IMG/VR virus record: IMGVR_UViG_3300003890_000024
Location: 1-21,551 of that record
Direction: 5' to 3' (one strand)
Source: a virus
DNA length: 21,551 nt
In this document: one piece after another, positions 9,579 through 21,551 of the stretch
Position numbering within the stretch: position 1 is the stretch's first letter
Layout of the letters: the number at the start of each line of letters is the position of its first letter
Position numbers and translations under genes: made by a program
Notes under the pieces: model-generated
What the model was told of the DNA's origin: nothing
Database searches by the model: none
What the model saw: the letters and a program-made list of their open reading frames with translations, nothing else

Positions 9579-10073
9579 ATGAGTGATACTTTTAGCCCGC
9601 GTACCGGGTTTGCAATGAAATTGTATTATGCCACTGGGAATATGAGTAGTCCCACGTGGAATGAAGTTGGTGCCGTTGGTGATGTGAATATTTCTAGTCT
9701 TTCCAGAGGAATGGCAGAGTTAAAACGACGTGGTAGTTACTACACGAAGAACTTGCCTACGTTGTTTGAATCAATCACAGTTGAATTCACAATTCCGTTT
9801 GGTGTTAGTCAAACTGCTTATGACCAAATTCGTGCAGATTTCTTTAGTGGAACTGCTCGATTGTGGGCAGTTATGAGTGGTAATATTACAGTTAGTGGTG
9901 TGCAGGGACTTGTATTGCCTGCTCTTGTCACTCAATTTCCTTGGGATCAACCATTGGAAGATGTGAGTAATCATAATATTCAGCTATCGGTTGCATATCT
10001 GGAAAACAGCTCAGGTCAAGAACTTGACCCGTATTGGTTAGTTGTTGGCTCTAGCACAACTACTACAACATAA
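9579..10073 (+). CDS. Major tail tube protein
   Basis: 164 residues, all-beta. The sequence TFSPRTGFAMKLYYATG, then WNEVGAVGDVNISS, an ESITVEFTIPFG strand and IRADFFSGTARLWAV is typical of lambda gpV/HK97-type tube proteins that stack into the tail tube. It uses CGT/CGA for six of its seven Arg codons, like the capsid gene, fitting high expression. It ends in a short Ser/Thr tail. Lies in the usual place between terminator and chaperone genes, though separated from the chaperones here by an inserted cassette. Confidence 0.75.
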   Translation: MSDTFSPRTGFAMKLYYATGNMSSPTWNEVGAVGDVNISSLSRGMAELKRRGSYYTKNLPTLFESITVEFTIPFGVSQTAYDQIRADFFSGTARLWAVMSGNITVSGVQGLVLPALVTQFPWDQPLEDVSNHNIQLSVAYLENSSGQELDPYWLVVGSSTTTTT

Positions 10074-10085
10074 TGAGGCATTGAA

Positions 10086-10370
10086 ATGATCGTCTATGCG
10101 ACTTTCAAAGCAATAACGGTTGGTGAATTGGTTGATCTGTGTAGGAAAAAGAGGGATCATCCGTTGAGTGCTAGTTATTTGATTGGTTGTGCTGCTCTGC
10201 CTTATGACAAAACAGTATATATTGATGAAGAAGCTTATAGGGCTTTGATCTCTGAGGAAAAAGCTATTGTCAAGAATAAGATTGACAAGGTTGTGATAAA
10301 CGATATCGACACGGGAGAACCCACAGAGGTGAACGCAGTTGTAAAAGTAGTTGAATATCTTGATGGATGA
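10086..10370 (+). CDS. Small hypothetical protein after the tail tube gene
   Basis: 94 residues, soluble, with an N-terminal helix (GELVDLCRKK), a YDKTVYIDEEAYRALI segment and a C-terminal beta region ending VVKVVEYLDG. No motif recognised. A GAGG SD (10074-10077) precedes ATG 10086. Its stop overlaps a possible ATG of the peptidase gene (ATGA at 10367-10370), so the two are probably translationally linked. Could be a tail-assembly accessory. Confidence 0.65.
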   Translation: MIVYATFKAITVGELVDLCRKKRDHPLSASYLIGCAALPYDKTVYIDEEAYRALISEEKAIVKNKIDKVVINDIDTGEPTEVNAVVKVVEYLDG

Positions 10371-10381
10371 AAGGTAAAGCC

Positions 10382-11068
10382 ATGAACAGAAAAGAGGTGT
10401 TATTTATAGTTAGTCTTATTGGTGTGGTTCTATATTATGCCGTTGTCGGTACCAATGAAAAGAACAGCGATGTTCAAAATCAAGTGCAGGAATCTGCGAA
10501 GGTTAAGGTGGTGAGAAAAGATTTGTATGTGTTAAATTCTGATATGTTGGATTTTCCTCCAGAAGTTAGAGCGTGGTATAGAAATCCTGATGGTAGTTGT
10601 GTGCAGTGCAGCATAGGAATGTGTGGTGTTTGGCAAAATACTTTGGAGGCATCTACTTTACTATGGGATAGTCCTTACGGAAGTCGAGTAAGAGGGGGTA
10701 GTGGTCCAAGTAGAGTAGCAAATTATAGTAAGGAACGTGGACTACCCATCTACAACATAACTGGTGAAGGGACATTGGATTGGATGAAATGGGCTATTAG
10801 AAATGGCAGGATGGTTGCTATCGGTGCTGGAGTTGCTCATTTTCAAACATTAGTTTGGATTAGCAACGATCCCTCCGATAAGAAACCATTCAAAGTGTGT
10901 AATAACAATAGCCCTACTAGAATTGATGAATATGATTTTAATTCTTTTATGAGACTGCATCTATCTAGTGGAAGATGGGTAGTTATTATCAAATCGCCCT
11001 CACCACCTGCTATGCCAAAAAATTATGATGAGTGGGTGGTGTACAACAGGTTTGGAGGAGACCTATGA
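10382..11068 (+). CDS. Membrane-anchored papain-like (C39-fold) cysteine peptidase
   Basis: 228 residues. A hydrophobic N-terminal segment (about 6-23, VLFIVSLIGVVLYYAVVG) would anchor it with the rest outside the cytoplasm. The soluble part has the order of a papain-like Cys-His-Asn enzyme: GSCVQCSIGMCGVW (Cys73, Cys76, Cys81; Cys76 the likeliest nucleophile), GAGVAHFQTLVWI (His153) and VCNNNSP (Asn174-176). ATG 10382 is preferred: AAGG (10371-10374) is well spaced, whereas ATG 10367 has no SD and would rely on coupling. Its stop overlaps the next start (ATGA, 11065-11068). Substrate unknown; a processing protease or a cell-wall hydrolase are both possible. A tail-operon location is unusual. 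The fold is inferred from motif order only. Confidence 0.6.
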   Translation: MNRKEVLFIVSLIGVVLYYAVVGTNEKNSDVQNQVQESAKVKVVRKDLYVLNSDMLDFPPEVRAWYRNPDGSCVQCSIGMCGVWQNTLEASTLLWDSPYGSRVRGGSGPSRVANYSKERGLPIYNITGEGTLDWMKWAIRNGRMVAIGAGVAHFQTLVWISNDPSDKKPFKVCNNNSPTRIDEYDFNSFMRLHLSSGRWVVIIKSPSPPAMPKNYDEWVVYNRFGGDL

Positions 11069-12060
11069 GTGCTAAAACGATTAAGATTCTGATGACTTAT
11101 GTCATAACAACCTGTATGTTGTATATGCAACCTCTATTTGCACAAATGCCTGAAGTTGATGCAAATGAGGTTGCCCGTCTTGGAAATATGGTGCAAAGTA
11201 TTGACAAATTTGGAAAAAGCAATACGGAAGTTGACGATCTGTATGTGTTGGCGATGTCAACGCCAGAAAATGACAATGATCGTTGGTATGTGACGTTGAT
11301 TATTAAGAATGGCTGTGTTCATTGTAAAAAGCTGCTAGCAGATTTTGAGAAATTGCCTCTAGCAGCGTTAATTAACGAAACTAAAGGCCCTGACGGAAAG
11401 ACATATAAGCCTTGGGCGCATTTTAATATTTATAATGTGGACGATGGGAGTCAGAGTTGGAGAATTCGTGCCTATCGTATATATGAATATCCAACGATTG
11501 TGATTCAACCTCCAAGAAGCGGTAAATATGGTGATCCACGTAATGTTGTATGGCAGCAAAGTGGGTATGATGGTAATCCAAATAAGTTGATGGAGCGTAT
11601 TCAAAATGGTGTGAAGAATTATTTGAAGCTTATCGCCGAAGCTAATCGAGCAAAAAATAAGGTTGGTGAATATGGTGTTCGCCCTTTTCTGGTGAGTTTG
11701 GTGGGATATTCCCAAGAAGGAGATTTAGATATTGGGAACCCTCCGTTTCCAATAATCAATCCGAGCGACCAAGTACAGCTTCAACCGAAAATAGTCGAGT
11801 GGCCACCGAGCCAAAATCAGAATCAAAATCAGAACCAAAATCAACCACAAGTAAGCCTATCCCAAGTAGTAGTCCTATTGATTCAAGCAGTGATCGCAAT
11901 TCTGAACTCAACAGGATTAGGGAACCTGCTTCTCCTAATTATGGTTATATATTGGACCTTAGAAAGGATCGCACCCCTAACACCAAACCAGATAGACGAC
12001 AAGATTGTAGCTGTCCTAAAGGAGGCACTGGAAAAGAAAGACCAGTCTGGGAAATCCTAA
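11065..12060 (+). CDS. Secreted/membrane thioredoxin-fold protein
   Basis: 331 residues. A signal-like hydrophobic segment (about 7-26, ending LFAQ) is followed by a thioredoxin domain: the strand WYVTLIIKNG leads into CVHC (Cys84-Cys87), and EYPTIVI carries the expected cis-Pro (Pro143). After about 190 comes a linker with (Asn-Gln) repeats (250-260), a hydrophobic transmembrane stretch (about 264-299) and a charged C-terminus. The thioredoxin domain is thus probably outside the cytoplasm and C-terminally anchored. GGAGGAG lies before ATG 11065, which overlaps the peptidase stop. A CxxC protein could keep the neighbouring peptidase Cys reduced or handle disulfides in the Cys-rich tail protein; both are inference. 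The last 262 bases also encode another protein in the -1 frame. Confidence 0.75.
   Translation: MSAKTIKILMTYVITTCMLYMQPLFAQMPEVDANEVARLGNMVQSIDKFGKSNTEVDDLYVLAMSTPENDNDRWYVTLIIKNGCVHCKKLLADFEKLPLAALINETKGPDGKTYKPWAHFNIYNVDDGSQSWRIRAYRIYEYPTIVIQPPRSGKYGDPRNVVWQQSGYDGNPNKLMERIQNGVKNYLKLIAEANRAKNKVGEYGVRPFLVSLVGYSQEGDLDIGNPPFPIINPSDQVQLQPKIVEWPPSQNQNQNQNQNQPQVSLSQVVVLLIQAVIAILNSTGLGNLLLLIMVIYWTLERIAPLTPNQIDDKIVAVLKEALEKKDQSGKS
11682..11688 (+). promoter_or_regulatory. Candidate -1 ribosomal frameshift site C CCT TTT
   Basis: The heptamer is in phase with the thioredoxin frame (codons CCT Pro207, TTT Phe208) and has the X XXY YYZ form. The -1 frame opens at 11670, just upstream, and stays open to 12203. 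A 5-bp hairpin TGGGA-TAT-TCCCA (11702-11714) begins 13 bases downstream. A slip would give a protein of about 379 residues: the thioredoxin domain plus 171 residues ending in a membrane segment. Geometry is suggestive; no homologues were compared. Confidence 0.35.
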
Positions 12061-13221: not shown

Positions 13222-13797
13222 ATGCCATATATTGTAAGGTCATTGAGTGGCAGAAGAGTACAAACGAATCTAGGTAGGATTACTGGACGGTTCAAAATTC
13301 GTCCGCATATCAAAATAAATTTGTTGGATAGGAGCGTTATTCGTAGCAATTGGTCAGAGATAGCCTTTGGACCAGTAATGCATCTGGCATTATTGGTTAG
13401 AAAAATAGCCAGAGGAAGCATTAGAAGAAGAAAGAAAAAATATGGAAAACCATCTCCTCCAGGAACTCCGCCGTACTCAAGGAAACCTGGATTAACACCG
13501 CCGATGAAAATGATTTATGCGGTTCCCTATAAGTTTGGTACCGCTGCTATAGTTGGTATGGTTTACTTTCCAGGAAAAGGAAGTACAGATGTTCCAGTAC
13601 CTGGATTGCATGAACATGGTGGTATAACTAAAAGGCGTGCTCTTGTAGTTGTCGGGAAAACGAAGAAAGGAAAAGACAAGACTAAGCGTAAGTGGGTAAT
13701 GGCGAAATATCCTCCACGACCATTTATGGCACCTGCTTTGCTAAAGGCTAAAGCTGCATTCCAGCAAAGAGGAATTAAATTGAGAGGGGTTGCATAA
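13222..13797 (+). CDS. Minor tail / tail completion protein (HK97 gp10- or lambda Z-like)
   Basis: 191 residues, very basic (stretches RRRKKKYGK and KKGKDKTKRK). The C-terminal YPPRPFMAPALLKAK carries the 'RPFM.PAL' signature seen in HK97-gp10-like and phage virion morphogenesis proteins that complete the tail. The Pro-rich segment PSPPGTPPYSRKPG (about 77-90) also fits this family, where 'PGxPP..RTG' is common. GAGGTGAT precedes the ATG. These genes normally lie between connector and tube genes; here it lies just before the tape measure, a modest rearrangement. Confidence 0.65.
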   Translation: MPYIVRSLSGRRVQTNLGRITGRFKIRPHIKINLLDRSVIRSNWSEIAFGPVMHLALLVRKIARGSIRRRKKKYGKPSPPGTPPYSRKPGLTPPMKMIYAVPYKFGTAAIVGMVYFPGKGSTDVPVPGLHEHGGITKRRALVVVGKTKKGKDKTKRKWVMAKYPPRPFMAPALLKAKAAFQQRGIKLRGVA

Positions 13798-13807
13798 GGA
13801 GTTAGCT

Positions 13808-16800
13808 ATGCCTAGTGCAGCAGGTATTAAAGCTGGTAAAGCGTTTATAGTAATTGACGCAATGGATATGACTGCAAGAGCATTTGCAGGCATACGTAAA
13901 AATATTTATAGTCTTGGTAGTACGATGAGTTCGGTTGGGCAATCTATTGCAGTGACTTCTGCACTAATGTTCAGTCCGTTCTCAATTGGAATGCGCAAAT
14001 TTGCAGAGTTTGATGATGCACTACGTAAGTTGGTAGGTAAGTCTACTGGTAAAGTTAAAGATTTGTTGGATATGGAACGTACTGCTCTGATATTGTCGAA
14101 AAATATGGGATTTGGTATTAAAGAAATAGTTGACACTGCTAGAACATTGGTTGAAGGTGGGTTGGAAGGAGATGCATTAAAGAAAGTACTTCCGCAAGTG
14201 TTGCTTTTGGCAAAAGCTGCTGGTGATGCATCGGATCAAATTACAGATTTACGGCATGCAGCAGGAGCAGTTACTGGTATTTTGAATGCATATAGAATGG
14301 ATGTGAGTAGTGCGGCAAGGGTCGTGGATATTTTGGCTAAAGTAGTGAATAAGACCAATATAAATATGGAAGATTTGAATGTGATAGTTGGCTATGCTGC
14401 AACAGTTGCCGCAGAATATCGAGTTAGTCTTGAAGAGTTGATGGCTGTTATGGGCGTATTTCGTGATGTGAATATGGATGCATCAGTAGCTGCCACTGCT
14501 TTCAGGAATATTTTGCTGTATAGTACTAGTAAGTCTGAACTCGATAAATTTAATGAGAAATTAGCCGAATTAACCGGAAAGGTTATTGAGTTTACTGATG
14601 CAAGTGGTAAACTAAAAAGTCCTATTGTGTTTTTGACAGCTATTGGTGAAGTTCTTAAGACAATTGATGATGAAACAGTTAGAGGAGAACTGTTGAGTAA
14701 TTTGTTTGGTACTCGATCTACAGTGCCATCTATGCAGATCGTAAAAAATATTGATAGACTGAGTGAACTGATTGTAGAATTGAGAAATTCTAGTGGTACA
14801 GCAACTAAGATGGCTCAGTTTATGGAGTCTGGTTTTGGTGGTAAATTAAGGAAATTGCTTGGGCAGTTGTCTAGCTTGGTATCTTCTTTCAAAGTCTTGT
14901 CTCCAACATTTGATATGTTCATCATGTTGATTGGCAAGGCTATAACATGGGTGGAGAAGTTTATCTATAAAAACAGGGATTTGGTAAATGTGATTGTACA
15001 ATTAATTGCAATGTCTGGTGTTTTCGGAATTGGGATGATCGTTGTTGGAAAAATCTTGAGGATGGTTGGTATGATTATGACTCCAGTTGCTTATGCACTA
15101 GTGATGTTCAGTAGGACGATTAGCTTTTTATCTCATAGTGCGGTACCGCAAGCAGTGAAGTCATTGAATAGGTTGGGTTCAATGTATTTATTCTTATACC
15201 GTTGGTCGCGTTCGTTAGTTAGGGCCACAGGATCTTTGTCATCATCAATAGTCAAATTGTGGCTAAACGCAACAAATGAAGCACTATCAAATTGGGGAGT
15301 TTTTACTTCGTCTGTAACTAAGAAGGTTAGTCTTGCTTTCAAAGAAGTTGAGGGAGTTGTACAGAAAACGTTTATTGGATGGTCAAGAGTGTTTAGTGGC
15401 AAAATCTTTTCAAATAAATCTATGATAAGACCTATTATTGATCTCAATAAGATGCTAATGAGCACTGGTCATTATAAGGCATTAGCAAATGAATTGAATA
15501 ATATACTTAAAACTTTTAGTAAAATAGATGTGTTATTTACGAACTTGTATCCTAAACGCCCATTTGCAGAAAAAGCAGCCGCTAATTTTCTAGGTGCATT
15601 TGAAAAACATTTGAAATTGGGAATGAAAAACTTACCATTGCGTACTCATCGTTTTGCCAACTTCTTATTTGATAACATATTCAAAATTAGAAATTATGGT
15701 ACTGAAAGATTTGTTAACGACTTTTTGAGTAAGGCACTTAATCATAGTTTGTTAAGAGTCTATAAAGTGGGTACTCGAACTGTTGTGAGACAAGCAAGAA
15801 GTATTCAAAGATATGTAGAAGTACTGGGAGGAGCATTTAAGGCTTTTATTCAAGATTATCAATTAGTAGAATATACAGCTAAAAAAGTTGGTAAGAGGAT
15901 TTTAGTATCAGGTTTAAGATATAGCCATGATGTAGCAAGACTAATTGGAAGTAATCAAAGATTGGTTAGTGTGACAATATTCGGTGTCACACAGTCTGCA
16001 CTTGTTTCTGCTAATGCAGTACAACGTTTATTGAACAGTACAAATAAACCGTTCATGCTGTGGTTGAGATCAACTATGCTCGTAGCAAAACAAGTTGGAT
16101 ATTTGAGGTTCGGCTTAACTGCAATGTTTGGGGCATTAAGAAATTTATTGAATATGGACGTATCAACCTTTTTTGGCGGTATTATGTCATTTTTATGGAC
16201 AATCGCTGGAATTATTATGGCTCCAATCACAGAAGGTGCCAAATTAGTTTGGGATTTAATTAAAAAAGGATGGAATGGTGCATTGGAACTCACTGCAAAA
16301 TTATTTAATTATATTGCTGCTGATCCGATTGGACTGTTGATAAAAGGCATTACGGCAATTGTAGCTGCTTTAATGGTAGTGGTGACTTTAACGGTAATTG
16401 GTGCAGCAGCATGGGGAATTTTGAAAGCAATTGTTATTAAAACGATGGGGATCATAGCTTCATCACTAGCAAGTGTTCCGATATTGTTTGAAAAGATGAT
16501 TGAAGGTGCCTTGCGATTGGGCAAAAGACTAACTACTTTATATTCTACAGTGCATGAGTATGTAAAAGTGGCAATGGATGCCAACAGGTTTGATCTTGCT
16601 GCAAGGTTGATCTCTACAGCAATGAAGATTGCATTTCTTGAAATACGTAATGAAGCATTAGTAACGTTCAGAGGATTTGCTGCTGGGTTCATTGCAACTA
16701 TAATGCTTGTTAAAGAATTGACTAATAAACTAATGAAAATGGGTAGTGTTCTCGTCAAGATTGGTCGTGTAGCCGGATGGCTAATTCCTGATAGTATGGG

Positions 16801-17470
16801 TGGTGGGATGATAAGGCTATTCAATGCTGTTAGTGGATGGTTCCAAGAAACTACGGAAGATACAATAGATAGTCTCAGTGAACGATGGATGAAATTGAAA
16901 CAGCAAGCTGAGAAAGATTTGGCAGCAGGTGACGTTAGGAGAATACAAGAACTTGAAGATGCATATACTGAATTACATAATGTCAAAATGCAAATTCGTG
17001 TGGCAACTGGAAGAAATCCGGAGCTTGAGAAATTAGAACAAGATTTGGCGCTTGGGCTAAATAATGCTGCATCTGAAGGTGTGTATTCTGGGATGCGAGA
17101 TGGTGCTAGACGTGCTATGAGGAGTGAAGTAATTCCTGGATGGAAAGAACTGCCTGAAGAAATTGGTGGTGGAAGAGTTTGGGTCGGTCCTGGTAAAGAA
17201 GCAGCAGTTGCAGAAGCTCGAAGAAAACTAGCAATAGAAGCTAGAAATGCAATCAGACCTGCCCCAAAAACACTTACGTTTGAAAAGATAGATGTTATTA
17301 AGGCAGCAGAAAAATATTCTTCTGAAGCATTTAGATCATTCTATGAGAATATGCTGGTTGAAAAAGATCCAACTGTTGAAAGGTTGGATGTAATTAGTGA
17401 CCATTTAAGAGCAGTTCCTAAGATGGCTGAAGACATAGGTGAAATACGAAGAAGCTTAACTGAAGATTAG
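13808..17470 (+). CDS. Tail tape measure protein (TP901-1 type)
   Basis: 1220 residues. It sets tail length and is ejected during infection. The first 350 residues match the PhageMin_Tail/TP901 core: FAEFDDALRKLVG, then GFGIKEIVDTARTLVEGG, the MDLNVIVGYAATVAAEYRVSLEEL-type region (about 195-218) and VAATAFRNILL. Hydrophobic membrane-like stretches occur at about 395-440, 785-805 and 840-885, as expected for a protein that inserts in the host membrane; the C-terminal 250 residues are helical and charged. ATG 13808 is chosen over TTG 13790 because AAGGAG (13796-13801) is 6 bases before it. At the usual 1.5 angstroms per residue the tail would be roughly 180 nm (inference). Confidence 0.9.
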   Translation: MPSAAGIKAGKAFIVIDAMDMTARAFAGIRKNIYSLGSTMSSVGQSIAVTSALMFSPFSIGMRKFAEFDDALRKLVGKSTGKVKDLLDMERTALILSKNMGFGIKEIVDTARTLVEGGLEGDALKKVLPQVLLLAKAAGDASDQITDLRHAAGAVTGILNAYRMDVSSAARVVDILAKVVNKTNINMEDLNVIVGYAATVAAEYRVSLEELMAVMGVFRDVNMDASVAATAFRNILLYSTSKSELDKFNEKLAELTGKVIEFTDASGKLKSPIVFLTAIGEVLKTIDDETVRGELLSNLFGTRSTVPSMQIVKNIDRLSELIVELRNSSGTATKMAQFMESGFGGKLRKLLGQLSSLVSSFKVLSPTFDMFIMLIGKAITWVEKFIYKNRDLVNVIVQLIAMSGVFGIGMIVVGKILRMVGMIMTPVAYALVMFSRTISFLSHSAVPQAVKSLNRLGSMYLFLYRWSRSLVRATGSLSSSIVKLWLNATNEALSNWGVFTSSVTKKVSLAFKEVEGVVQKTFIGWSRVFSGKIFSNKSMIRPIIDLNKMLMSTGHYKALANELNNILKTFSKIDVLFTNLYPKRPFAEKAAANFLGAFEKHLKLGMKNLPLRTHRFANFLFDNIFKIRNYGTERFVNDFLSKALNHSLLRVYKVGTRTVVRQARSIQRYVEVLGGAFKAFIQDYQLVEYTAKKVGKRILVSGLRYSHDVARLIGSNQRLVSVTIFGVTQSALVSANAVQRLLNSTNKPFMLWLRSTMLVAKQVGYLRFGLTAMFGALRNLLNMDVSTFFGGIMSFLWTIAGIIMAPITEGAKLVWDLIKKGWNGALELTAKLFNYIAADPIGLLIKGITAIVAALMVVVTLTVIGAAAWGILKAIVIKTMGIIASSLASVPILFEKMIEGALRLGKRLTTLYSTVHEYVKVAMDANRFDLAARLISTAMKIAFLEIRNEALVTFRGFAAGFIATIMLVKELTNKLMKMGSVLVKIGRVAGWLIPDSMGGGMIRLFNAVSGWFQETTEDTIDSLSERWMKLKQQAEKDLAAGDVRRIQELEDAYTELHNVKMQIRVATGRNPELEKLEQDLALGLNNAASEGVYSGMRDGARRAMRSEVIPGWKELPEEIGGGRVWVGPGKEAAVAEARRKLAIEARNAIRPAPKTLTFEKIDVIKAAEKYSSEAFRSFYENMLVEKDPTVERLDVISDHLRAVPKMAEDIGEIRRSLTED

Positions 17471-18436: not shown

Positions 18437-20407
18437 ATGGCTTTCTTCTCCAGAAAAGAAAAGCGTGAGCTTAAAAAGCTTAGTAGAATTCAACGCACTG
18501 GTAGTACTGGTGTGTTTAGTGGTGATATTGAAGAGGTACGTAGTGGAAACATTTCTTATATAGCATTCACGCTTACTTCAATAAATGCTGCAAGTATTCA
18601 AAATAATAAGGTTGTTCTATCTAATGGCATCTGCACTGTTTGGAAAAGAAAGGCAGAAATTGATGATGGATATTCCGGTCTTCCAGACGAGAAAGCAGCA
18701 GGTACTGAGTTAGTCCCAGATCGTTATGATAATGGAAAGTGCTTCAAAATAAGGGCGTGGAATGCATCAAAGGAAACAATTCCAGCTTGTACATATGTAA
18801 AGGTTGCACAGGATGTTAGTGGTGATTTGTATATAATCGAGGTGTTTGCAACTCAATCCACAACAACTTCTACAACAAAACCATGCAGCAGCAAGAGGTG
18901 TAAGTGGATATGGAATTCGAGTACCAATAAATGGGCGCTGGATAAAAATGAATGCACTACTACTAGCACGTCAACATCAACATCAACTACAAGTAGTGGA
19001 AGTACTACAACAACCGAATATTGCGGCTGCCCAACTACAACAACAAAACCTCCAAAGTGTGAATGTACTTATCCAGATTTTTGTTGTGATAATGGTGAGT
19101 GCGGCCCAACTGAATCTGAAATCTGTACTTATACCAGGTGTTCTAGGAACCCACCAAAGTCAAAAGTAAATTGCAACACAACAACTAGTTCAACAACTAC
19201 TTCGACAAGTACAAGTGAAACCACAACAACTAGCGAACCGACAACCACTCTTGAGCCTACTACAACTTTAGAACCAACAACCACTATTGAACCGACTACA
19301 ACTACGAGTGAACCTACCACAACAAGTAGTGAGCCGACAACTACTACTGATGATGGTACTGAATGTGGTCAATGTGGTTGGAGGTTTAATGCACTAGGTA
19401 GTGTAGAGAATCAATTTAATAATTGTAGAGATGGTTGTTCTTGTCCTTTAGCACATAATGGGAACCCATGTTCAGAAATAGTATTAAATTGTGTAAGACC
19501 TTCAACATCAACTTCACCGTCTCCTTCTTGTAATTATGATTGTAGGTATATATGTGATCCTGCAAGTGGGTGGATACTAGTACAATCCGGTTGTTCGACT
19601 GGATGTGGATGTAAGCCACCAACTGAAGATTGTAGTGAATGTGGTAGCGAAACTTATGTTCATTGTTCATCAATATCTGATGGTGGTGGCGACGGTTCAA
19701 CAACTACTAGTGAAACCACTACAACTAGCGAACCAACAACTACTCTAGAACCTACTACAACTTTAGAACCAACAACCACATCATCATCGACAACTAGTAC
19801 AACTCCAGAATGTCAGGATAAAAAATGTGTTTGGAAATGCAATAATGGTGAGTGGGAGCTAAAGTCGAATCAATGCCCTGAAAATTGTGATTGCTATCAA
19901 CCTAATGAAGGATGTGTTGGAGATTGCACAACCGCCAAAACTGATTGTTTACCTGGTCCAACAACAACAAGTTCATCTACAACTAGTACTACGTGGGCAT
20001 GTTATCAATATAAGTGTGTACCAGTTAATCAACATACTGATCAGGGATGGCTTTATTTTGATGGAATAGCCTGTAGAAGTGTGGCACAGCCACCGTACGG
20101 ATCTTGTGAAGAATTAGGGTGCGGTAATGCTGGTGGTACCTTATGTAGATTTTGTAATGACCCATGTCCAATACCACGTGATATTTTTATTGATAATTTG
20201 TTACAGTATGATCCTAATACAGGTTATACAGGTATACCATGTCGTATACCTCCACCATGTGAACAAACAACTAGTACAACTACTGAATCAACTAGTACAT
20301 CAACTGAACCACCAACCACTGAACCGCCAACTACTCAACCACCAACTACTCAACCACCAACTACTCAACCACCAACTACTCAACCACCATCAACATCAAC
20401 AAGTTAA
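18437..20407 (+). CDS. Large Cys-rich, Thr-rich (mucin-like) modular virion protein
   Basis: 656 residues. Residues 1-140 form a globular domain ending AWNASKETIPACTYVKVAQD...GDLYIIEVF, probably the virion attachment part. The rest alternates Cys-rich modules (about 150-173, 196-246, 310-352, 365-410, 459-504, 522-608) with Thr-rich linkers: TTTLEP/TTTSEP units (261-305, 426-455) and TTQPP units (about 620-652). Four modules share the pattern C-x(2-4)-C-x-[WY]-x-[CWF]; three keep a later W-x-L and three end C-x3-C-x-C. Even spacing of Cys suggests disulfide-bonded knots. There is no signal peptide, so it is likely a virion protein, perhaps a fibre that binds the host surface. AAGGGA is 9 bases before the ATG. 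The next gene is a glycosyltransferase, hinting that the linkers are glycosylated. Confidence 0.75.
   Translation: MAFFSRKEKRELKKLSRIQRTGSTGVFSGDIEEVRSGNISYIAFTLTSINAASIQNNKVVLSNGICTVWKRKAEIDDGYSGLPDEKAAGTELVPDRYDNGKCFKIRAWNASKETIPACTYVKVAQDVSGDLYIIEVFATQSTTTSTTKPCSSKRCKWIWNSSTNKWALDKNECTTTSTSTSTSTTSSGSTTTTEYCGCPTTTTKPPKCECTYPDFCCDNGECGPTESEICTYTRCSRNPPKSKVNCNTTTSSTTTSTSTSETTTTSEPTTTLEPTTTLEPTTTIEPTTTTSEPTTTSSEPTTTTDDGTECGQCGWRFNALGSVENQFNNCRDGCSCPLAHNGNPCSEIVLNCVRPSTSTSPSPSCNYDCRYICDPASGWILVQSGCSTGCGCKPPTEDCSECGSETYVHCSSISDGGGDGSTTTSETTTTSEPTTTLEPTTTLEPTTTSSSTTSTTPECQDKKCVWKCNNGEWELKSNQCPENCDCYQPNEGCVGDCTTAKTDCLPGPTTTSSSTTSTTWACYQYKCVPVNQHTDQGWLYFDGIACRSVAQPPYGSCEELGCGNAGGTLCRFCNDPCPIPRDIFIDNLLQYDPNTGYTGIPCRIPPPCEQTTSTTTESTSTSTEPPTTEPPTTQPPTTQPPTTQPPTTQPPSTSTS
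19210..19350 (+). repeat. Degenerate tandem repeat coding TTTLEP/TTTSEP units
   Basis: About six imperfect copies of an 18-base unit coding Thr-Thr-Thr-x-Glu-Pro in the Cys/Thr-rich gene. A shorter second block lies at about 19700-19790. Synonymous differences between copies show that selection acts on the protein pattern rather than on recent DNA duplication. Confidence 0.6.
20315..20389 (+). repeat. Five tandem copies of a 15-base unit coding TTQPP/TTEPP
   Basis: Four identical copies of ACTACTCAACCACCA (20330-20389) are preceded by one diverged copy (20315-20329). Unlike the other Thr-rich blocks these are identical at DNA level, so recent slippage or recombination is likely and copy number may vary between relatives. 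They form the C-terminal Pro/Thr tail of the protein. Confidence 0.8.
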
Positions 20408-20460
20408 TAATTGGTATTGAAAGATATGACGAAACATATGAACAAAATAAGGAGATGACG

Positions 20461-21551
20461 ATGAGACTTACAATCGGAATGGCAACGTATGATGATTTCG
20501 ATGGAGCATATTTCACGATCCAAGCACTTCGTCTTTATCATCAAGAAGTGATGGATCGAGTAGAAATTATTGTTATTGATAATAATCCGAACTCTTCATC
20601 TAGTAAGTATTTGGAGAATTTCGTGGTCAATTGGGCACACGGAAAATATGTTCCATTTAATGAAGTGACTGGTACGACTGTACCTAGGGATAAAGTCTTT
20701 GAATATGCACAAACTGAAGCTGTAATGTGTGTTGATAGTCATGTAATGATCTGGCCAGGAGCGATTAAAAAGCTGCTCAATTATTATGAGAGTAATCCAG
20801 ACACTAAAAATTTGTATTCTGGCCCATTAGTGTATGATGATTTGACAACGTATTCCACGCATTTTAACAATGTGTGGAGGAGTGAGATGTTGGGAATATG
20901 GGGAACTGCGTGGAAGTGTGACGAGAATTGCGACTTCATATTCACAACGATCCCATCTACTGAAAATATTGAAAGTATTGTGACGTTGGATATGAGGCAT
21001 AAACCTTTGGACAAGTGTCCTAAGTGCGGTAAGAAATATCCTGGGTTACTTGATGCAAGAAAGTTGCATAACACGCTAGCATCTATTGGATGCAAGGTGT
21101 ATGGGGAAATAAATGACAATCCATTTTCCATCCCAGGAATGGGATTAGGCCTTTTCACAGCATTGAAAAAGAACTGGTTAGGATTCAATCCTAACTTTAG
21201 AGGGTTTGGTGGAGAGGAGATGTATATCCATGAAAAATATAGGATGAATGGTGGTGATTGTATTTGTTTGCCGTTCTTAAGATGGGTCCATAGGTTTGCG
21301 AGACCAGCAGGTGTGCCTTATGTAAAGCATTTGACTGTGTGGAATAAAGTTAGGAATTATGTGATTGGTAGGCAAGAACTTGGCCTTAAAGTCGATGATA
21401 TCTATGCTCATTTCAAGGAGAGGATGCCTAAACATGAATGGGATTATCTTCTTGAAGATCCAATTGGACACACGTTTTTACCGTCGCATGTTGGAGCAAG
21501 TACTGTTCAAAATCCAGGTAGGCCACAACCAAGGGCAAGTGCTGATTATAA
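20461..21551 (+). CDS. GT-A glycosyltransferase with DSH motif (partial, runs off the window)
   Basis: 363 codons visible without a stop. The N-terminus MRLTIGMATYDDFDG with a first strand ending VIDNN (about residue 40) is the nucleotide-binding start of a GT-A fold (family 2-like). VMCVDSHVMIWPG places Asp92-Ser93-His94 where GT-A enzymes bind the metal; DSH is the form known in polypeptide GalNAc-transferases (GT27). Further on, GFGGEEMYIHEKYRMNGGD (about 248-266) and LPFLRWVHRF resemble their WGGE...SFR...CGG and C-terminal VGH segments. Two Cys pairs (153/157, 186/189) in the middle suggest a zinc-binding insert. AAGGAG (20449-20454) favours ATG 20461 over 20455. It follows the mucin-like gene by 53 bases. 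Sugar and acceptor are not known. Confidence 0.85.
   Translation, partial: MRLTIGMATYDDFDGAYFTIQALRLYHQEVMDRVEIIVIDNNPNSSSSKYLENFVVNWAHGKYVPFNEVTGTTVPRDKVFEYAQTEAVMCVDSHVMIWPGAIKKLLNYYESNPDTKNLYSGPLVYDDLTTYSTHFNNVWRSEMLGIWGTAWKCDENCDFIFTTIPSTENIESIVTLDMRHKPLDKCPKCGKKYPGLLDARKLHNTLASIGCKVYGEINDNPFSIPGMGLGLFTALKKNWLGFNPNFRGFGGEEMYIHEKYRMNGGDCICLPFLRWVHRFARPAGVPYVKHLTVWNKVRNYVIGRQELGLKVDDIYAHFKERMPKHEWDYLLEDPIGHTFLPSHVGASTVQNPGRPQPRASADY

Follow-up and report, generated by a model that had tools for sequence, protein, structure and literature searches.

A phage tail gene pair encoding a threonine-rich, mucin-like protein and a GalNAc-transferase-like enzyme, a candidate O-glycosylation cassette

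The two genes and their products

We analyzed a 21,551-nucleotide stretch of viral DNA (positions 1 to 21,551 of IMG/VR record IMGVR_UViG_3300003890_000024, hereafter the window), focusing on two adjacent genes, starting at 18437 and 20455, that code for a threonine-rich protein and for a glycosyltransferase (GT) resembling polypeptide N-acetylgalactosamine (GalNAc) transferases. The window is a fragment of a tailed phage with the gene order terminase, portal, capsid, tail genes, tape measure, and tail-tip region, and nearly all of it is overlapped at ~99.96-99.98% identity by a 50.5-kb contig (the contig behind loci L002 and L283). The features of the gene pair are as follows.

18437..20407, plus strand: candidate mucin-like acceptor protein of 656 amino acids (aa), with an N-terminal domain, Cys-rich modules, and Thr/Ser/Pro linkers
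18437..18856, plus strand: N-terminal beta-rich domain (residues 1-140; AlphaFold2 model), presumed to serve virion attachment
18884..18955, plus strand: first, partial Cys-rich segment, CSSKRCKWIWNSSTNKWALDKNEC (alignment with partner proteins)
19154..19366, plus strand: longest Thr/Ser/Pro linker, with repeats TTTLEP, TTTIEP, and TTTSEP
19364..19492, plus strand: Cys-rich module CGQCGWRF...CSEIVLNC
19529..19666, plus strand: Cys-rich module CNYDCRYIC...YVHC
19667..19825, plus strand: Thr/Ser/Pro linker, with repeats TTTSEP and TTTLEP
19811..19948, plus strand: Cys-rich module CQDKKCVWKC...KTDC
20249..20404, plus strand: C-terminal Thr/Pro tail with TTQPP repeats
20455..21551, plus strand: GT-A glycosyltransferase, GalNAc-transferase-like (Glycos_transf_2, E = 3.4e-10); first 365 residues, running off the window end
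20734..20742, plus strand: DSH, putative metal-binding motif (D94, H96)
21205..21291, plus strand: FGGEE ... WVH segment, aligned with GalNAc-T10 and ending at H279, the third putative metal ligand

The protein encoded by the open reading frame (ORF) 18437-20407 contains 127 Thr, 74 Ser, 56 Pro, and 51 Cys, and its seven Thr/Ser/Pro tracts alternate as linkers with the Cys-rich modules. The initial annotation had reported Thr-rich linkers in this protein, which we confirm, and had passed over the Cys-rich modules. Thr codons are mixed (ACT 62, ACA 49, ACC 12, ACG 4), so that the Thr tracts are not a simple DNA repeat. The protein matched no Pfam family above the cut-off, no PHROG, and no NCBIfam family. 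In the AlphaFold2 model of its N-terminal domain (overall pLDDT 69), residues about 40-70 and 100-140 are confident; nothing significant was found in the PDB with this domain, the best matches being small beta-barrels (E > 0.01) that we left uninterpreted. The window and L002 versions of the whole protein differ by one insertion only, with TTQPP repeated four times in the window and eight times in L002; TTQPP is, to judge from these two copies, a length-variable tandem repeat, assembly collapse being possible. Long Thr/Ser/Pro tracts, a variable-number proline/threonine/serine (PTS) repeat, and interposed Cys-rich domains, which characterize mucin-like glycoproteins, including the acceptor mucins of GT27 enzymes, are all present in this protein. 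A hidden Markov model (HMM) of the Cys module, built from partner proteins and run against all ORFs of about 160 loci, matched only the Thr-rich ORFs of the phage clade described below (1-8 hits per partner protein, with 1-7 copies each at a strict cut-off), with one match in the control set. An enzyme-free locus carrying the Cys module, L246, lies on a contig that stops within the module gene and so speaks neither for nor against gene pairing.

The assignment of the next gene to GT-A enzymes stands, with the correction that the gene is incomplete in the window; the complete enzyme has 631 aa (L002:10001-11896). It begins with a GT-A domain (Glycos_transf_2, E = 8e-10), continues with a methyltransferase-like domain, and closes with a Cys-rich part that matches DUF6171 (E = 6.5e-9); the catalytic domain starts at about residue 5, and no membrane segment is apparent. 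The DSH motif and the GGEE...H segment reported in the initial annotation are present, and D94, H96, E254, E255, W277, H279, R280, and F281 are invariant across 34 relatives. The AlphaFold2 model of the complete enzyme (mean pLDDT 86.5) was compared with the PDB by Foldseek, and all 50 matches listed were GT27 polypeptide GalNAc-transferases (from human, mouse, Drosophila, and Toxoplasma; best GalNAc-T2, E = 1.8e-12) rather than unrelated GT2 enzymes. The TM-scores of these matches are low in absolute terms (about 0.3-0.35, normalized to the two-domain query), as expected if mainly the GT domain of the query matches. By sequence profile, GalNAc-T10 was matched over about 178 positions that include DxH and GGE (E = 1.1e-5), and the GT-A enzyme 6h1j was matched slightly better (E = 2.5e-6) but over the N-terminal half only.

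The resemblance to GalNAc-transferases therefore holds for the fold and the motifs (DxH, the GGE segment, the distal His) and extends to a Thr/Pro-rich candidate acceptor with Pro at +3, but not to membership of GT27: the phage enzyme is GT27-like and not a GT27 member, since it lacks the ricin-B lectin domain and the N-terminal membrane anchor, and it further departs from GT27 in being cytoplasmic and in having a fused methyltransferase-like domain followed by a DUF6171-like tail rich in Cys. The GT60 (PF11397) family, annotated as 'GlcNAc', also has a DxH-type GT-A fold. The BFVD fold matches of our enzyme include phage proteins named 'Glycosyltransferase, GlcNAc' and a Che8 glycosyltransferase, but the window enzyme has no match to Pfam PF11397.

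The methyltransferase-like domain matches Methyltransf_24 with E = 2e-6 in L003, 7e-6 in L011, and 0.05 in L002. The Gly-rich S-adenosylmethionine (SAM) motif, EFGVRxGVST, is kept only in L003 and L011, most members having E[FI][TS]xR[RK]ES[ST] instead. With the SAM-binding motif altered in most family members, we doubt that this phage methylates; active methylation was set aside, and the fused domain, as judged from this motif, is probably noncatalytic in this phage. The conserved replacement of the Gly motif (domain at L002:11093-11653) might reflect a new function.

Pairing of the enzyme with threonine-rich proteins

Relatives of the enzyme were collected from IMG/VR (114, of which 80 were kept) and from GTDB genomes (112, 80 kept), and an ORF was taken as Thr-rich if it had at least 12 Thr in 30 residues. 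In a quick tree of 99 dereplicated GT domains, which has many weak forks, phage proteins with fused GT and methyltransferase-like domains form one clade with planctomycete and Chloroflexota genome loci (the GT-methyltransferase clade, to which our enzyme belongs), separate from a GT-only phage clade and from a bacterial group. In all 14 dereplicated loci of the GT-methyltransferase clade, a Thr-rich ORF lies no more than ~1.5 kb from the enzyme gene, and in 12 the distance is within 1 kb and the strand is the same; L005 and L026 have one intervening gene. Same-strand pairing differs significantly from that in the GT-only clade (12/14 vs. 2/21; Fisher P = 8e-6). Most of the Thr-rich partners in the GT-methyltransferase clade share the Cys beads and adjoin tail genes; of 10 members tested, 8 have a tape-measure gene 2-4 kb upstream of their Thr-rich ORF. 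We assigned the gene pair of the window to the tail module because of the following gene nearby.

13790..17470, plus strand: tape-measure protein (PF10145, E = 1.6e-30; phrog_28, E = 1.3e-41)

The pairing is also visible in bacterial relatives, with a Thr-rich ORF on the same strand in 21 of 55 and on either strand in 25 of 55; the density of Thr-rich ORFs around these enzymes is 0.275 per kb within 1 kb and 0-0.046 per kb beyond. Over all dereplicated loci, 40 of 90 have a Thr-rich neighbor vs. 15.3 ± 3.0 when the enzyme is placed at random within its own locus, and none of 2000 random placements gave more than 26. The partners come from Pseudomonadota, Thermodesulfobacteriota, Actinomycetota, Acidobacteriota, Planctomycetota, Chloroflexota, Thermomicrobiota, Verrucomicrobiota, Bacteroidota, and Fraseribacteriota, a count that includes many metagenome-assembled genomes and some loci that are, or may be, prophages. 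Cultured bacteria with the pair include Chthoniobacter flavus Ellin428, Desulfofustis glycolicus DSM 9705, and Oricola indica JL-62, and L011 belongs to a prophage of an isolate. The recurrence of the pairing across phages and about ten bacterial phyla makes it very probable that the phage enzyme glycosylates its neighbor. Co-occurrence of the two genes, suggested as a check in the initial annotation, is thus found in the enzyme's own clade and in many bacterial relatives, but not in most of the GT-only phage clade.

The bacterial Thr-rich partners show no sequence relationship with the phage protein. In several, Thr-rich tails such as TTTAAPTTTAAP come after an initial twin-arginine signal (L106 and L113 match TIGR01409 above its cut-off), and some bacterial relatives adjoin Ser-rich proteins instead (e.g., SSSSSYFF in L118). 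The bacterial enzymes often have an extra HprK-related-kinase or PqqD-like domain; fusions of the GT to HprK-related-kinase-A domains or to PqqD-like domains, which in ribosomally synthesized and post-translationally modified peptide (RiPP) systems serve recognition, occur in L136, L144, L141, L134, and L098. Together with a PqqD-like N-terminus on some Thr-rich partners (L090, L113), these fusions may represent a separate peptide-tailoring system.

In 50,697 annotated phage records neither protein has relatives, and a search for close relatives without the enzyme, made with the capsid and post-tape-measure proteins, turned up only near-identical contigs. The short enzymes of the GT-only phage clade (~283 aa; L017-L081) adjoin conserved acidic or Lys-rich ORFs, not Thr-rich ones. 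In L299 (G015:20760-21635), the match to a GT-family gene that lies beside a poly-Thr ORF includes one TAG, which may reflect recoding, a pseudogene, or a match overrunning the stop.

The initial annotation had also pointed out that many Thr have Pro at +2 or +3. We counted TxxP (Thr, exactly two non-Thr residues, then Pro) in dereplicated partners and found Pro at +3 to be ~3.5-fold overrepresented relative to shuffled sequences (phage partners: 75 observed vs. 20.6 expected; bacterial partners: 72 vs. 20.3), although repeats within a protein inflate the raw counts. Poly-Thr phage proteins without a nearby enzyme gave 90 vs. 50 expected. Of 40 partners, 21 have TxxP as their most frequent spacing, as do 13 of 57 controls (P = 0.0046), the controls having been chosen by a run of ten Thr codons and hence differing from the partners in composition. 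The TxxP preference agrees with a GalNAc-transferase-like specificity but is no proof of it.

Proposed role and alternative explanations

We propose, with a probability of about 0.78, that the gene pair is a phage cassette that O-glycosylates a mucin-like tail protein. The product of the gene at 18437 would be a tail-associated protein in which a presumed attachment domain is followed by Cys-rich beads joined by Thr/Ser/Pro linkers, and the gene at 20455 would code for a GT-A enzyme that is soluble, depends on a metal, and shares the build of polypeptide GalNAc-transferases. Inside the infected host cell, this enzyme would use a nucleotide-sugar donor to attach a single sugar (perhaps GalNAc or GlcNAc, perhaps a different one) to linker Thr or Ser, with a preference for Thr with Pro at +3, and in the complete virus a second GT2 enzyme and a sulfotransferase would probably extend or modify this first sugar. 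The tail tip would thereby gain a bottle-brush coat that is stiff and hydrophilic and resists proteases. A Thr tag at the C-terminus of the tail tube may also accept sugar.

The closest functional precedents are the PgfS-Cnm system (PMC5856776) and mycobacteriophage virion glycosylation (PMC12363180). In Streptococcus mutans, the GT-A gene pgfS lies directly downstream of the gene for Cnm, a protein with a threonine-rich region, and PgfS is required for the modification of Cnm, which shields Cnm from proteolysis (PMC5856776). The phage GT-A gene is likewise directly downstream of the gene for a Thr-rich protein, and the window enzyme has weak NCBIfam similarity to PgfS (E = 0.0017); PgfS, however, is membrane-bound and works with PgfM1, PgfE, and PgfM2, whereas the downstream genes of the phage (in L002) code for a sulfotransferase and a GT2 enzyme. 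In mycobacteriophages Che8, Corndog, and Myrna, phage GTs modify virion proteins, including tail-tube C-termini, with a shielding role (Freeman 2023, as cited in PMC12363180 and PMC12619734), and the citing passages describe no mucin-like partner gene. In an open-access paper library, we found neither a phage pair of mucin-like protein and GT nor prokaryotic GT27-like pairs described.

Several observations weigh against the proposed cassette. The location of the 656-aa protein in the virion rests on synteny, and neither the sugar nor its linkage can be read from sequence, so that GalNAc, the sugar initially favored, was not adopted. In the GT-only phage clade, a Thr-rich neighbor is found in 2-3 of 21 loci (2 of 21 on the same strand), so that the enzyme fold alone does not imply a Thr-rich acceptor, and more than half of the bacterial relatives have no Thr-rich ORF at the threshold used, some having Ser-rich ones. 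In the reverse test, 3 of 98 phage loci with a poly-Thr ORF carry this enzyme family and 95 do not (2 of 39 carry it when at least 1.5 kb is available on both sides); Thr-rich virion proteins therefore do not need the enzyme. Together with the pairing, this means that prediction works in one direction, from the enzyme to a Thr-rich partner and not from a Thr-rich protein to the enzyme.

The scarcity of the enzyme near poly-Thr ORFs and of Thr-rich neighbors in the GT-only clade would also suit a reading in which the linkers are unmodified flexible spacers and the GT acts elsewhere, on host surface polysaccharide or phage DNA, sharing the tail operon by chance or timing; some phage GTs are known to act on DNA or on host surfaces (PMC12619734). 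We consider this unlikely, because the pairing is constant in the GT-methyltransferase clade and recurs in many bacterial phyla, where the Thr-rich proteins are unrelated and their frequency drops sharply with distance, and because the enzyme resembles protein-acceptor enzymes and TxxP is enriched in the partners. About as unlikely, in our judgment, is a general virion O-glycosyltransferase that acts mainly on Thr tags of abundant subunits, for instance those of the tail tube, after the pattern of mycobacteriophages, with the neighboring protein as one, perhaps minor, acceptor. Such a tag is present in the window.

9579..10073, plus strand: putative tail-tube protein (so assigned from gene order), possible second acceptor
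10056-10070, plus strand: C-terminal Thr tag of this protein (SSTTTTT end)

Its homologue in L288 (48% identical) ends in WTTTTTTT, and tail proteins end in TTTTTTLAP in L010, TTTTTTTTPAP in L013, and TSTTTTPAP in L026. Glycans at the C-termini of mycobacteriophage capsid and tail-tube proteins (Freeman 2023, as cited in PMC12619734) and the Che8 enzyme among the fold matches point the same way, but no Thr tags are found in the available upstream sequence of L003, L004, L011, and L029, whereas the large Thr-rich neighbor is always present. It is very improbable that the enzyme is inactive as a transferase and that the Thr-rich tract serves this family for nothing more than docking or chaperoning: the lack of the Gly-rich SAM motif in most members indicates a partly degenerate protein, and PqqD-like recognition domains in bacterial relatives would fit docking, but 34 divergent relatives agree in every putative catalytic residue of the GT.

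Beyond the phage cassette, we give even odds to the wider proposal that prokaryotes and phages have their own widespread mucin-type O-glycosylation, in which a GalNAc-transferase-like enzyme serves a Thr-rich acceptor of its own, both in phage tails and next to proteins secreted by the twin-arginine pathway in about ten bacterial phyla. If this is true, eukaryotic mucin-type glycosylation has a prokaryotic counterpart, older than it or parallel to it, with the same enzyme fold and the same acceptor logic. If the phage cassette works as proposed, phages make a mucin-like coat with their own enzymes, which would bear on adsorption, protease resistance, and surface adhesion, and the family would comprise soluble cytoplasmic initiators of protein O-glycosylation amenable to study in E. 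coli. The family would also offer a noneukaryotic counterpart of GT27 that is open to testing, and it would suggest what the Thr-rich proteins adjoining such enzymes in bacterial genomes might do.

Downstream genes and other genes of the tail region

Beyond the window end, the enzyme gene is followed in L002 by a gene for a Sulfotransfer_2 protein (E = 4.2e-12; L002:11898-12578) and then by one for a second GT2 enzyme (E = 1.3e-8; both within L002:11898-13494). L004 keeps this gene order (Sulfotransfer_2, E = 3.7e-24; GT2, E = 8e-11), and L029 has a separate methyltransferase gene (E = 6.6e-13). The content of these genes suggests further elaboration of the first sugar, differing between relatives. 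L083 has a similar-looking downstream arrangement to that of L002 and L004. The genes after the cassette (L002:13591-15938) show weak BppU_N and Mtd_N similarity, as in receptor-binding or tropism proteins.

Upstream in the window, the protein at 10367-11068 has an N-terminal hydrophobic segment and a Cys...His pattern that by eye resembles a C39-type cysteine peptidase, without database support. The protein at 11032-12060 has a CVHC motif and weak similarity to thioredoxin and protein disulfide isomerase (E = 0.14-0.18), and could bear on the disulfides of the 51-Cys tail protein of the same phage.

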